A stretch of 64,000 nucleotides of DNA from Marmoricola sp. Leaf446. Lineage in GTDB: Bacteria > Actinomycetota > Actinomycetes > Propionibacteriales > Nocardioidaceae. The position numbers were made by a program, and so were the translations under genes. The notes under the pieces were generated by a model, which saw only the letters and a list, made by a program, of their open reading frames with translations, made no database searches and was not told the origin of the DNA. Positions 29,845-61,185 of this stretch are shown one piece after another. The stretch spans positions 770,169 through 834,168 of the forward strand of contig NZ_LMRF01000001.1 in NCBI RefSeq assembly GCF_001424755.1. The letters are read 5' to 3'. Each line of letters starts with the position of its first letter. The first letter of the stretch is position 1.

Positions 29845-29848
<4 letters not shown>
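28931..29848 (+). CDS. ispE: IspE, 4-diphosphocytidyl-2-C-methyl-D-erythritol kinase
   Basis: 305 residues of the GHMP kinase fold. [13 protein letters not shown] at the N-terminus, the glycine-rich phosphate loop [40 protein letters not shown] and [12 protein letters not shown] near the C-terminus. Fourth step of the MEP isoprenoid pathway. ATGA overlaps with both neighbours couple it to rsmA and the ABC-F gene. Confidence 0.96.
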
Positions 29849-31653
<1,805 letters not shown>

Positions 31654-31659
31654 GGGGCG

Positions 31660-31693
31660 GGGCAGTTTCCCCGGCCAGCCGGTGAAACTGCCC
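31660..31693 (+). terminator. Palindromic terminator after the ABC-F gene (member of a repeated palindrome family)
   Basis: GGGCAGTTTC / GAAACTGCCC arms with inner CCGGC/GCCGG, one mismatch and a 2-base loop, 6 bases after the stop. A second hairpin with CGGGCA-gttt-TGCCCG follows at about 31721-31736. The same palindrome occurs after the ChoD-like gene. Confidence 0.75.
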
Positions 31694-31775
31694 GTGCAAC
31701 CGGGATGAAACGGGCGCCGGCGGGCAGTTTTGCCCGCGAGGGTGCCCGACTTGTCCGGCGAGGGCCTCCGGCAAC

Positions 31776-32415
31776 GGAGCGTCGTTCGAAGTGGGCGCCC
31801 GGACGACCTGCTCGTATGACGCGTTGCCCGGGTGGCTGGAGCGTCGTACGGGGTGGTCGCTCGGACGACCTGTTCGTATGACGCGTTGCCCGGGTGGCTG
31901 GGGCGTCATACGGGGTGATCGCTCGGACGACCTGTTCGTATGACGCGTCGCTCGCCGACGACCAGGACGTATGACGCCCCCCGCCGCGACGCCCCTCCCG
32001 ATCAGCCGCGCGGGACGTCATCAGGGTCGTGGCCTCCAGGCCACCATCTCGATGACGTCCGGAGCTGATGACGCCGCGCCCCCGGACGCCCTCGGTCGGA
32101 GCGTCATACGGGGTGGTCGTCCGGACGACCTGCTCGTATGACGCGTTGCCCGGGTGGCTGGAGCGTCATACGGGGTGCTCGCTCGGACGACCTTTTCGTA
32201 TGACGCGTCGCTCGCCGACGACCAGGACGTACGACGCGCCCCCACCGCGACGCCCCTCCCGATCAGCCGCGCGGGACGTCATCAGGATCGTGGCCTCCAG
32301 CCCACCATCTCGATGACGTCCGGAGCTGATGACGCCGCGCCCCCGACGCCCTCCTCCGCAGCTGACGACGCCCCACCCGACGACCAGCACGTACGACGCA
32401 CCCCCGCCGCGACGG
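31776..32415. repeat. Tandem array of hairpin-forming units (62-base and 260-base periods)
   Basis: This stretch holds no plausible gene. A 260-base unit is tandemly repeated (31838-32097 and 32098-32353; the copies differ at few positions). Each unit contains two 62-base subunits carrying a 40-base palindrome with arms GTCATACG / CGTATGAC and an inner GGTCG...CGACC (at 31843, 31905; 32103, 32165; a diverged one at 31781), and one other hairpin with arms GGACGTCATC / GATGACGTCC enclosing GTGGCCT/AGGCCAC (32013-32060 and its copy about 32274-32321). A truncated third unit ends near 32414. Function unknown. Confidence 0.9.
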
Positions 32416-32439
32416 GAGCCCACCCACGGACCCCCGACC

Positions 32440-32928
32440 TCAGACCAGCGGCACCATCAGCTGCTTGAGCAACCGCGCGAGCGACTCGCGATCCTCCGGG
32501 GGGAGGGCGGCGAGCAGGGAGCGCTCACGGTCGAGCAGCGACTCGAAGGCGTCGTCGACGCTGCGGCCGCCGGCGTCGGTCAGGCGGACGAGTACGCCGC
32601 GCCGGTCGTGGGGGTCGGGCAGTCGGTCGACGAGGCCGCGGGCGACGAGCCGGTCGACGCGGTTGGTCATCGTGCCGCTGGTGACCAGCGTCTGCCGTAA
32701 CAGCGCGCCGGGACTGAGCTGGTAGGGCCGCCCGGCACGCCGGAGCGCGGCGAGCACGTCGAACTCCCACGGCTCGACGTCGACCGCGGCGAAGGCGGCG
32801 CGCCGCTCGCGGTCGAGCAGCCGGGCGAGCCGGGTGAGGCGGCTGAAGACCTCGACGGGCGCCAGGTCGAGGTCGGAGCGCTCGCGGCCCCACGCCTCGA
32901 CCAGCTCGTCGACCTCGTCCCGCTCCAC
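32440..32928 (-). CDS. MarR-family transcriptional regulator
   Basis: 162 residues from GTG. Winged helix-turn-helix: VEPWEFDVLAALRRAG, LSPGALLRQTLVTSGTMTNRVDRLVARGLVDR (recognition helix region) and the wing DPHDRRGVLVRLTDAG, all MarR landmarks. Probably controls the divergent methyltransferase gene and itself through the palindrome between them. Leaderless: TACGCT (32935-32940) lies 6 bases before the GTG. Confidence 0.93.
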   Translation of the reverse strand: MERDEVDELVEAWGRERSDLDLAPVEVFSRLTRLARLLDRERRAAFAAVDVEPWEFDVLAALRRAGRPYQLSPGALLRQTLVTSGTMTNRVDRLVARGLVDRLPDPHDRRGVLVRLTDAGGRSVDDAFESLLDRERSLLAALPPEDRESLARLLKQLMVPLV

Positions 32929-52784: not shown

Positions 52785-54410
52785 TCAGTTGCTCGTCTTC
52801 TTGGCTGGGGCATTCTTTGCGGTGCTCTTCTTGGCCGGAGCTTTCTTGGTGGCGGTCTTCCTGGGCGGCGCCTTCTTCGCGGCGGCCTTCTTCGCCGGCT
52901 TGTCCAACGCAGCACGTGTCGCCGCTGACCGACCCGATCGGGCCTTCTGGGTGGGCTTGTCGGACGCGTCAGACGAACCGGAGTCGTCGCCTCCGGACGG
53001 CAGCCCAAGGCCCTTCTCCAGCGCGGTCAGCGCCTCACCGGTGTAGACGGCGAGCCGCTGCAGGTGGGGCACCGCGTCCCGGTCGCCGATGAAGCCGAAG
53101 TTCATGGTGTCGGCGTACGTCTCCAGGGTGATGTTCAGCGCCATCCCGTGCGCCGGGATCGACACCGGATAGACGGCCTCCAGGCGCGAGCCGTGCAGCC
53201 AGAGCGTCTTCTTCGGGCCCGGCACGTTGGAGAGCACCAGGTTGAAGGTGTTCGGCAGCGGGTTCTTGACGCCCGCGATCGCGGCCGAGGTCTGGGCGAC
53301 GCTGGGCGCCAGAAGGTATCCGGAGTACGCCAGCGAGGGCAGCTGACCCAGCCCGGCCATCTGGTCCTTCGCCTTGGTCGTCGAGTCGATCACCGCCTCC
53401 AGCCGCTCCACCGGGTCCGCCACGTGGGTGCCCATGGAGGCCATCAGCACGGCGACCTTGTTGCCGCCGCCCTCGTCGCCGTCGTCGCGGATGTTCACCG
53501 GCACGAAGGCCACCAGGGGCTTCGTCGGCAGCTCGCCGAGCTCGTCGAGGTAGGCGCGGAGCCCGCCGCCGCAGACCGCCATCACGACGTCGTTGAGGGT
53601 GCCGCCCGACGCCTTGGCGACGGCCTTGAAGCGGGAGGTGTCGAACTGCTGGGTGGCGAAGCGACGGGTCCGGCTGGTGCGCTGGTTGAAGATCGAGTCG
53701 GGCGCGCTCCAGCCGCCCTTGAGGTTCTTGTGCTCCTCCCCGCGGCTGGTCTCGAGCTTGATGACCGCCTTGGCCACGCCGGCCGCGGAACCCGCCGCGC
53801 CGAGCGCACCCTTGGCCACCCCGGTCGCCGTACCGGTCACGGCGCGGACCAGCGACGCGGACTCCTTCGGCGGCTTCGAGCGCTTCGGCGGGTCGAGGCT
53901 GAAGAAGAACTTGCCCTTGCTGTCCGGGTCCTCCGAGAGCGAGCGGCCCAGCATCTTCACCGCGCTGTAGCCGTCCACCAGGGCGTGGTGCACCTTCGTG
54001 TACAGCGCGAACCGACCGCCCTCGAGGCCCTCGATGACGTGCAGCTCCCACGGCGGCCGGGTGAAGTCGAGCTGGTGGCTGTGCAGCCGCGAGACCAGGA
54101 TGCCGAGCTCGCGCTCGTCGCCCGGGCTGGCCAACGCGGAGCGGCGTACGTGGAAGTCGAAGTCGAAGTTCTCGTCCTCGACCCACGCCTGTCGGGGGTG
54201 GCGCAGCAGGAACGGGTGCGTCAGCTTCTGGTTCCACGGCGGCAGCACCGGCTGGTGGCGCGCCTCCTCCAGGATGTCGCGCAGGTACGTCGGTCCCGCG
54301 TCGGCCGGCGGCGTGAACGGCATCAACGACGCGACGTGCATCATCGTCTCCGGCGTCTCGATCCACAGGAACATCGCGTCCTGCGGGGGAACCCTGCGCT
54401 TCTTGGCCAT
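52785..54410 (-). CDS. WS/DGAT-family acyltransferase with a lysine/alanine-rich C-terminal tail
   Basis: 541 residues. Condensation-fold N-terminus (PPQDAMFLWIETPETMMHVASLMPF), catalytic HHALVDGYSAVKML (HHxxxDG), and the second-half motifs GGTLNDVVMAVCGGGLRAYL, PVNIRDD and LVLSNVPGPK. Makes wax esters or triacylglycerols from acyl-CoA. The last 70 residues, after GLPSGGDDSG, are unlike the family: repeated KKAPAKK/KKAPPRK units resembling histone H1, so the protein may bind nucleic acid or membranes electrostatically. Divergent from the LigD-like gene with 73 bases between. Confidence 0.9.
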   Translation of the reverse strand: MAKKRRVPPQDAMFLWIETPETMMHVASLMPFTPPADAGPTYLRDILEEARHQPVLPPWNQKLTHPFLLRHPRQAWVEDENFDFDFHVRRSALASPGDERELGILVSRLHSHQLDFTRPPWELHVIEGLEGGRFALYTKVHHALVDGYSAVKMLGRSLSEDPDSKGKFFFSLDPPKRSKPPKESASLVRAVTGTATGVAKGALGAAGSAAGVAKAVIKLETSRGEEHKNLKGGWSAPDSIFNQRTSRTRRFATQQFDTSRFKAVAKASGGTLNDVVMAVCGGGLRAYLDELGELPTKPLVAFVPVNIRDDGDEGGGNKVAVLMASMGTHVADPVERLEAVIDSTTKAKDQMAGLGQLPSLAYSGYLLAPSVAQTSAAIAGVKNPLPNTFNLVLSNVPGPKKTLWLHGSRLEAVYPVSIPAHGMALNITLETYADTMNFGFIGDRDAVPHLQRLAVYTGEALTALEKGLGLPSGGDDSGSSDASDKPTQKARSGRSAATRAALDKPAKKAAAKKAPPRKTATKKAPAKKSTAKNAPAKKTSN

Positions 54411-61151: not shown

Positions 61152-61185
61152 CGGCAGTTTCACCGGCTGGCCGGTGAAACTGCCG
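61152..61185 (+). terminator. Perfect 16-bp palindrome after the ChoD-like gene (same family as 31660-31693)
   Basis: CGGCAGTTTCACCGGC, loop TG, exact complement. Shares its arm sequence GGCAGTTTC and inner CCGGC with the palindrome after the ABC-F gene 29 kb away. Confidence 0.75.

Follow-up and report, generated by a model that had tools for sequence, protein, structure and literature searches.

The array and its repeat unit

What is a tandem array of hairpins doing between an ABC-F ATPase gene and a MarR-like gene in Marmoricola sp. Leaf446, and how did it arise? The window, i.e., the whole stretch of 64,000 nucleotides that was analyzed, contains the array at positions 31776-32414, between the 3' ends of these two convergent genes, and the array is real: Tandem Repeats Finder, a repeat search of the window and counts across the genome all confirm it. 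Tandem Repeats Finder reports a period of 62 (31776-31948, 2.8 copies, 91% match) and a period of 260 (31838-32353, 2.0 copies, 94% match); the repeat search recovers the 62-bp and 260-bp families again, along with the inverted arms. The 260-base tandem unit of the original prediction is thus retained, but its 62-base palindromic module is not: the true repeat unit is an imperfect palindrome, always exactly 46 bp long, which together with a linker of 16 bp makes up the 62-bp period. Likewise, the two palindromes originally assigned to each 260-bp unit are present, both of type A, but the unit additionally holds one right half-copy and one type B palindrome. The window contains five type A palindromes, with the arms RCGTCATACG/CGTATGACGY (n=5), two type B palindromes of the same 46 bp, with the arms GACGTCATC/GATGACGTC (n=2), and three right half-copies. 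The features of the locus are as follows.

29845..31653, + strand: ABC-F ATPase gene, upstream of the array; stops 124 bp before the first palindrome
31778..31823, unstranded: palindrome, type A copy 1, with the degenerate left arm CGTCGTTCG
31838..32353, unstranded: two tandem 260-bp units
31840..31885, unstranded: palindrome, type A copy 2, arms CGTCGTACG / CGTATGACG
31902..31947, unstranded: palindrome, type A copy 3, 46 bp
31955..31977, + strand: right half-copy CCGACGACCAGGACGTATGACGC (repeat search)
32014..32059, unstranded: palindrome, type B copy 1, GACGTCATC / GATGACGTC
32100..32145, unstranded: palindrome, type A copy 4, the most symmetric copy of the array
32162..32207, unstranded: palindrome, type A copy 5, 46 bp
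32215..32237, + strand: right half-copy (repeat search)
32275..32320, unstranded: palindrome, type B copy 2, 46 bp
32377..32399, + strand: right half-copy, the last of the array (repeat search)
32440..32928, - strand: MarR-like gene, convergent; the array lies between its 3' end and that of the ABC-F gene

The tandem pair at 31838..32353 is read as a local duplication. With at most one mismatch, the arm sequence CGTCATACG occurs 32 times in the window compared to 13.7 expected, and none of 100 shuffles gives as high a count. The array is not a CRISPR, in agreement with the original prediction: identical repeats with unique spacers of constant length are absent, the linkers are themselves repeated, and the palindromes vary.

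Two other repeats were encountered in the window. A near-perfect hairpin of 32-34 bp, GGCAGTTTCACCGGC...GCCGGTGAAACTGCC, is found at 31661-31692 and 61153-61184, and again elsewhere (L087:5015-5046); it is likewise located after genes and is unrelated to the 46-bp palindrome. Positions 52785-52898 contain 30-bp repeats that lie within a region of the minus strand predicted to be coding (52785-54410) and apparently encode a Lys/Ala-rich stretch.

Structure and covariation

The hairpins of the array are strong, and in the consensus fold of the palindrome, an outer arm of 11 bp is followed by an internal loop (4x4) with poor pairing, an inner stem of 5 bp and a loop of 6 nt. In the aligned copies, symmetric positions pair in 81.0% of the cases compared to 71.3% in shuffles, and the covariation score is 0.305 against 0.162 (0 of 500 shuffles as high), although part of this signal comes from the split between the A and B subtypes, and the shuffles are not a strict test because the copies are related to each other. 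When the partner is slid by 1-3 columns, pairing falls to 19-48%. The symmetrically compensated changes that had been noticed between the units accordingly exceed both kinds of control. Mismatches on the sense strand are about equally G.T (64) and A.C (51) and thus give no indication that one RNA strand is under selection; this balance speaks against an RNA hairpin as the selected structure and in favor of a process at the level of DNA. The earlier suggestion of a small RNA cluster finds no support in this balance or in an Rfam scan, in which all matches are below the gathering scores, at chance level and biologically implausible (e.g., miRNA and insect flavivirus repeats).

A dispersed family of palindromes

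The palindrome is far from unique to the locus or absent from relatives, which is the outcome that the original prediction, together with a lack of covariation, had named as its refutation. In the 3.81 Mb genome of Leaf446, CGTCATACG occurs exactly 62 times compared to one occurrence of the reversed control, and a covariance model built from 41 palindrome copies yields 116 matches counted over both strands, i.e., about 60 palindromes. Within the genus, the model has matches in 18 of 24 genomes (1 to 115 each), so that the copy number is patchy, from 0 to about 60 palindromes. Among the matches listed from a search of 84,980 species for the exact pattern CGTCATACG-N24-CGTATGACG, all but a few belong to Nocardioidaceae (Nocardioides, Marmoricola, Aeromicrobium, Mumia); of the 117 loci among these matches, three carry another or a broader label, namely, one Pseudactinotalea and two unplaced actinobacterial MAGs. 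The arms (CGTCATACG) are conserved family-wide, and the interior of the palindrome is genome-specific.

The positions of the copies were typed at 80 loci from many species, with six copies inside predicted genes and nine at locus edges omitted. Of the typed copies, 46% are located between convergent genes, compared to 19% of gene pairs that are convergent; 45% are between tandem genes, many of these 7-45 bp beyond the upstream stop codon, and 8% are in divergent positions, several of which belong to the nuclease unit (see below), at its upstream end. One cluster in Leaf446 (L089, C4:99.4 kb) consists of three palindromes with a 73-bp spacing directly 3' of a XerC-like recombinase gene; the sister species lacks them there.

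Sites just past stop codons and between convergent genes, and the strength of the hairpins, would also fit palindromes selected as bidirectional terminators or as 3' mRNA-stabilizing hairpins, with an incidental link to the nuclease. However, no G+C-rich hairpin followed by a T-run was found within 31600-32500, so that an intrinsic terminator was rejected for the array, which has no T-run and no terminator-like site; the sense strand has no G.U bias; the exact sequence and length of the arms are conserved more than a terminator needs; and several genomes of the genus do without the palindromes. This explanation, which does not account for a single gene family being bracketed in most of its orthologs, appears very unlikely.

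Among the extragenic repeats of bacteria, REP-like ones are some of the commonest, and the HUH RAYT transposase is, to our knowledge, the only enzyme tied to them. The guess that the array is a REP/BIME-like element holds in kind, given that these are dispersed, extragenic palindromes 3' of genes, but fails with respect to the enzyme. Similar as the size, dispersal and placement are, a classical REP/BIME moved by a RAYT is extremely improbable: no Y1_Tnp domain (PF01797) is detected in the Leaf446 genome, compared to 5 of 14 control genomes that are positive, there is no unpaired tag of the GTAG type, and the gene that the palindromes bracket encodes a DUF559 protein unrelated to RAYT. The RAYT was accordingly rejected as the mover.

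The partner nuclease

The protein family that most commonly adjoins the palindromes consists of proteins of about 312 residues (8 loci in 8 species). The gene, about 1 kb in length, encodes an AbiEi-like N-terminus and a C-terminal Vsr/DUF559 nuclease domain; in Leaf446, it resides on another contig than the window, near C3:95355-96308 (L088:4356-5309). The Pfam DUF559 profile (PF04480) scores above the cut-off in most members and below it in some. The AbiEi winged-helix region at the N-terminus is recognized both by PADLOC, with E-values down to 1e-10, and by structure comparison, in which the AbiEi structure 6y8q aligns with residues 10-201. The best PDB matches of a model of the nuclease domain only (pLDDT 69) are I-Bth0305I, NGO0050 and PvuRts1I, followed by AbaSI (Z 6.3 to 3.8), a coherent set, though the Z scores are modest. 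The structural matches have middling Z scores (6-7.5) and come from low-confidence models, the full-length model being poor in the middle of the protein (pLDDT under 40 for most of residues 63-139); Foldseek alone finds no significant match. Residues E210, D241, E252 and G255 show no variation among the approximately 89 homologs with a letter at these positions, and H258 and D267 are nearly invariant. The dN/dS of the Leaf446 gene compared to the sister species is 0.15.

A strong ortholog is present in 116 of 342 genomes of the family, mostly in one copy. Leaf446 encodes two more AbiEi-DUF559 paralogs (L312 at C5:281 kb and L319 at C1:979 kb). In one genome (G006, L302 / L318), a frameshift breaks the nuclease gene in two, and about 50 palindromes are still present; it is possible that the enzyme was recently lost.

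Palindromes bracket the nuclease gene

A strong ortholog of the nuclease (over 400 bits) is encoded in seven genomes of the genus, and all seven orthologs have the CGTCAT palindrome on both sides, compared to none of 20 weaker paralogs. All seven genomes belong to the 10 palindrome-rich ones and none to the other 14 (hypergeometric 3.5e-4). At the first 28 additional loci of the family, the gene is flanked on at least one side in 28 of 28 cases and on both sides in 23. A de novo search for a matched left/right palindrome pair, the test used for bracketing, detects such a pair around 41 of 46 strong orthologs, around 11 of 14 homologs from other families, each with its own different 40-52-bp palindrome, and around 13 of 19 paralogs, each again with its own palindrome, so that the idea of unflanked paralogs, which do lack the CGTCAT palindrome, was rejected. 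Among 300 ordinary, randomly chosen genes, the search returns nine, four of which are the nuclease itself and the rest weak matches. Across the 342 genomes, palindromes are present in 109 of the 116 that carry the gene compared to 85 of the 226 that do not (Fisher 2e-26, in a test that ignores phylogeny and treats species as independent). Some of these 85 genomes with palindromes and without a close nuclease ortholog are complete and palindrome-rich; four fairly complete, palindrome-rich cases (G241, G346, G141 and G175) represent either loss of the enzyme or a diverged driver.

Different palindromes in different lineages

At the loci from other families, the palindromes match from left to right within a locus and differ between loci (CGTCCGAAGA, CGTCCTGCAGG, GGTCGAGGTA, TCGATGTA, ATCAGTCAGACG, GGACCTGTCCG and others). 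When eight foreign palindromes were concatenated into one query and compared to nine genomes, each genome matched essentially its own palindrome only, at no fewer than 40 loci in G374, more than 20 in G585 and several in the others; the genome of Leaf446 gave nothing below E 0.1 with the eight foreign palindromes. The identity of the palindrome arms tracks the identity of the nucleases (Mantel r 0.50, 0 of 5000 shuffles as high, in a test that again ignores phylogeny), consistent with the tree. Taken together, bracketing and co-divergence, both seen in sequence comparisons, strongly suggest that the nuclease recognizes its palindrome.

The paralog L312 is bracketed by a palindrome of its own, CCGTGTGGACTCC, so that a single genome may harbor several palindrome-nuclease pairs. 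A search for further copies of one paralog palindrome in approximately 220 kb of Leaf446 DNA gave only chance-like matches. A phage or plasmid vector was considered and rejected: the exact pattern CGTCATACG-N24-CGTATGACG is found in none of the viral contigs of IMG/VR, and no relative of the nuclease is detected in IMG/VR or PLSDB. A nuclease homolog bracketed by TCGGTGATGCA palindromes is encoded in MT837139.1 (L409), an entry labeled 'Bacteriophage sp.' from human gut with 74% G+C, which may be a misfiled actinobacterial scaffold.

Copying within genomes and relocation of the unit

Many palindrome loci are shared with the sister species (about 95% DNA identity), where the array of the window is shorter at the same locus; one locus has a type B copy here and a type A copy in the sister species, and at five of seven further loci checked the element is missing there. 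A precise empty site with a target duplication was not found in this comparison, and the absences often coincide with other rearrangements. Comparison of palindrome interiors across loci gives a higher similarity inside one genome (0.62) than between species (0.42), and this holds in 18 of 18 species; within a single nuclease unit, the left and right interiors are 78% identical, compared to 43% between units. Three pairs of loci with related nucleases (L324/L325, L339/L342 and L329/L348) lie in unrelated surroundings, with homology confined to the palindrome-gene-palindrome unit; for L324/L325 and L329/L348, the similarity ends at the outer ends of the palindromes. The left and right palindromes of a unit are in direct orientation in 32 cases and inverted in 12. 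About one third of the units share a common ancestral neighborhood near fumarase and a spermidine-synthase-like gene. Because the nuclease is mostly single-copy and about one third of its loci are in one ancestral neighborhood, the unit is not a freely jumping transposon; the shared neighborhood, the relocated units and the within-genome likeness together indicate that the unit is mostly inherited vertically and occasionally moved, and that the palindromes are copied within genomes. Compared to L332, one unit has an insertion sequence with an integrase-type (apparently DDE) transposase inserted at its right palindrome (L327:2470-3795); REPs have been reported as targets of insertion sequences (PMC1525189), and the palindromes may serve as such targets.

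These observations bear on a homing-type selfish nuclease that would cut chromosomal sites, with repair inserting the unit and solo palindromes left as remnants of recombination between flanking palindromes. The nuclease domain is, in the predicted model, structurally closest to the homing endonuclease I-Bth0305I, units do relocate, and the excess of direct over inverted flanks (32 vs 12) is what deletion to a solo copy needs. This possibility deserves some weight and is nevertheless unlikely: solo palindromes outnumber units by about 50 to 1, tandem amplification has occurred with no gene remnants, the unit is mostly single-copy, and no conserved target site is seen.

AbiEi antitoxins autoregulate via inverted repeats, and the N-terminus of the nuclease resembles such an antitoxin; together with the presence of palindromes both upstream and downstream of the gene and the conservation of the arms, as expected of protein sites, this would be compatible with palindromes as operators, or as sites recognized by an AbiEi-like regulator or defense nuclease, the gene being autoregulated and the dispersed sites serving regulation, self-marking or control of the nuclease rather than mobility. 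However, the dispersed copies are 3' of genes and scarce in divergent promoter regions, the interiors are genome-specific and homogenized, neither of which binding sites need, the units relocate with the palindromes as their boundaries, and the copy number varies from 0 to about 60, all of which makes this function quite unlikely. A site for a nucleoid protein had been proposed as well; intragenomic copying and a cognate flanking nuclease explain more than such a site would.

A possible mechanism

The explanation that we favor, and consider reasonably probable as a whole, is that non-autonomous REP-like palindromes form a local cluster in the array and are recognized, cut and spread by the cognate nuclease that they bracket elsewhere in the genome. 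The N-terminal winged-helix domain would recognize the palindrome as a duplex, a cruciform or a single-strand hairpin, and the C-terminal nuclease domain would nick or cut at it; repair or strand transfer would then copy palindromes into tolerated 3' intergenic sites and, rarely, copy the entire palindrome-gene-palindrome unit in the same manner. The tandem 62-bp and 260-bp duplications of the window would be a secondary local amplification. For cleavage and copying by the nuclease, we rely on the predicted fold and the pattern of homogenization, and from the sequence comparisons we infer that the nuclease spreads the palindrome; gene conversion that does not involve the nuclease could also homogenize the copies.

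The palindrome together with the nuclease that it brackets has the appearance of a spreading DNA element of a kind not described before and widespread in actinobacteria, although this novelty is provisional because the literature search covered open-access papers. The signature of bracketing, co-divergence, intragenomic copying and relocation ties a family of proteins with DUF559 and AbiEi domains, annotated as of unknown function and present in many families of Actinomycetes, to a specific DNA substrate, so that it becomes directly testable what these proteins do and where many hairpin repeats of actinobacteria come from, and points to a possible new route for the spread of DNA via a single small nuclease.

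Comparison with known systems

The EDxHD/Vsr-like homing endonucleases (I-Bth0305I) and DUF559 proteins are similar to the present enzyme in the predicted nuclease fold and in the invariant acidic and His residues, but here the nuclease domain is fused to an AbiEi-like winged-helix N-terminus. We know of none that is bracketed by cognate palindromes; in the open-access literature, no such bracketing was found for either group, and no paper was found that links DUF559 or AbiEi-DUF559 proteins with palindromic repeats. Insertion sequences and MITEs also combine a repeat-bounded gene with many gene-less copies, but the ends here are palindromes of mixed orientation, direct more commonly than inverted, and no target duplication was found; we are not aware of an IS family with a DUF559 protein.

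The CGTC-tagged REPs resemble the present repeats as CGTC-bearing palindromes 3' of genes; they are reported to have no dedicated transposase, and the missing enzyme was put as an open question (PMC3733652). In those REPs, the tag is unpaired at one end, whereas here CGTC pairs with GACG in every aligned copy; Actinobacteria are not mentioned for them (PMC3733652), and the systems related to the present one use other arms (e.g., GGTCGAGG, TCGATGTA and ATCAGTCAGACG).

The closest likeness in organization is to the 'REPtrons', that is, REP/REPIN sequences with their RAYT (TnpA-REP), which share the dispersed, often clustered extragenic palindromes (PMC3116915, PMC8266576, PMC3733652) and the single cognate gene, usually single-copy and flanked by the repeats. 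RAYT genes occur in single copy in association with their REPs (PMC3116915), and the repeat co-evolves with its enzyme (PMC8266576), as is the case here. The differences are in the enzyme, which is predicted to be an AbiEi/Vsr-like nuclease of the PD-(D/E)xK type and not an HUH transposase; in the palindromes, which are 40-52 bp, near-symmetric and paired to the end of the arms, with no unpaired tetranucleotide (GTAG) tag; and in the host group, Actinomycetes. We see a somewhat better than even chance that Actinomycetes harbor a large undescribed class of such systems, where a private family of 40-52-bp palindromes would be maintained and spread by each lineage of AbiEi-Vsr nucleases, with several independent pairs per genome, as a non-HUH counterpart of REP and RAYT.
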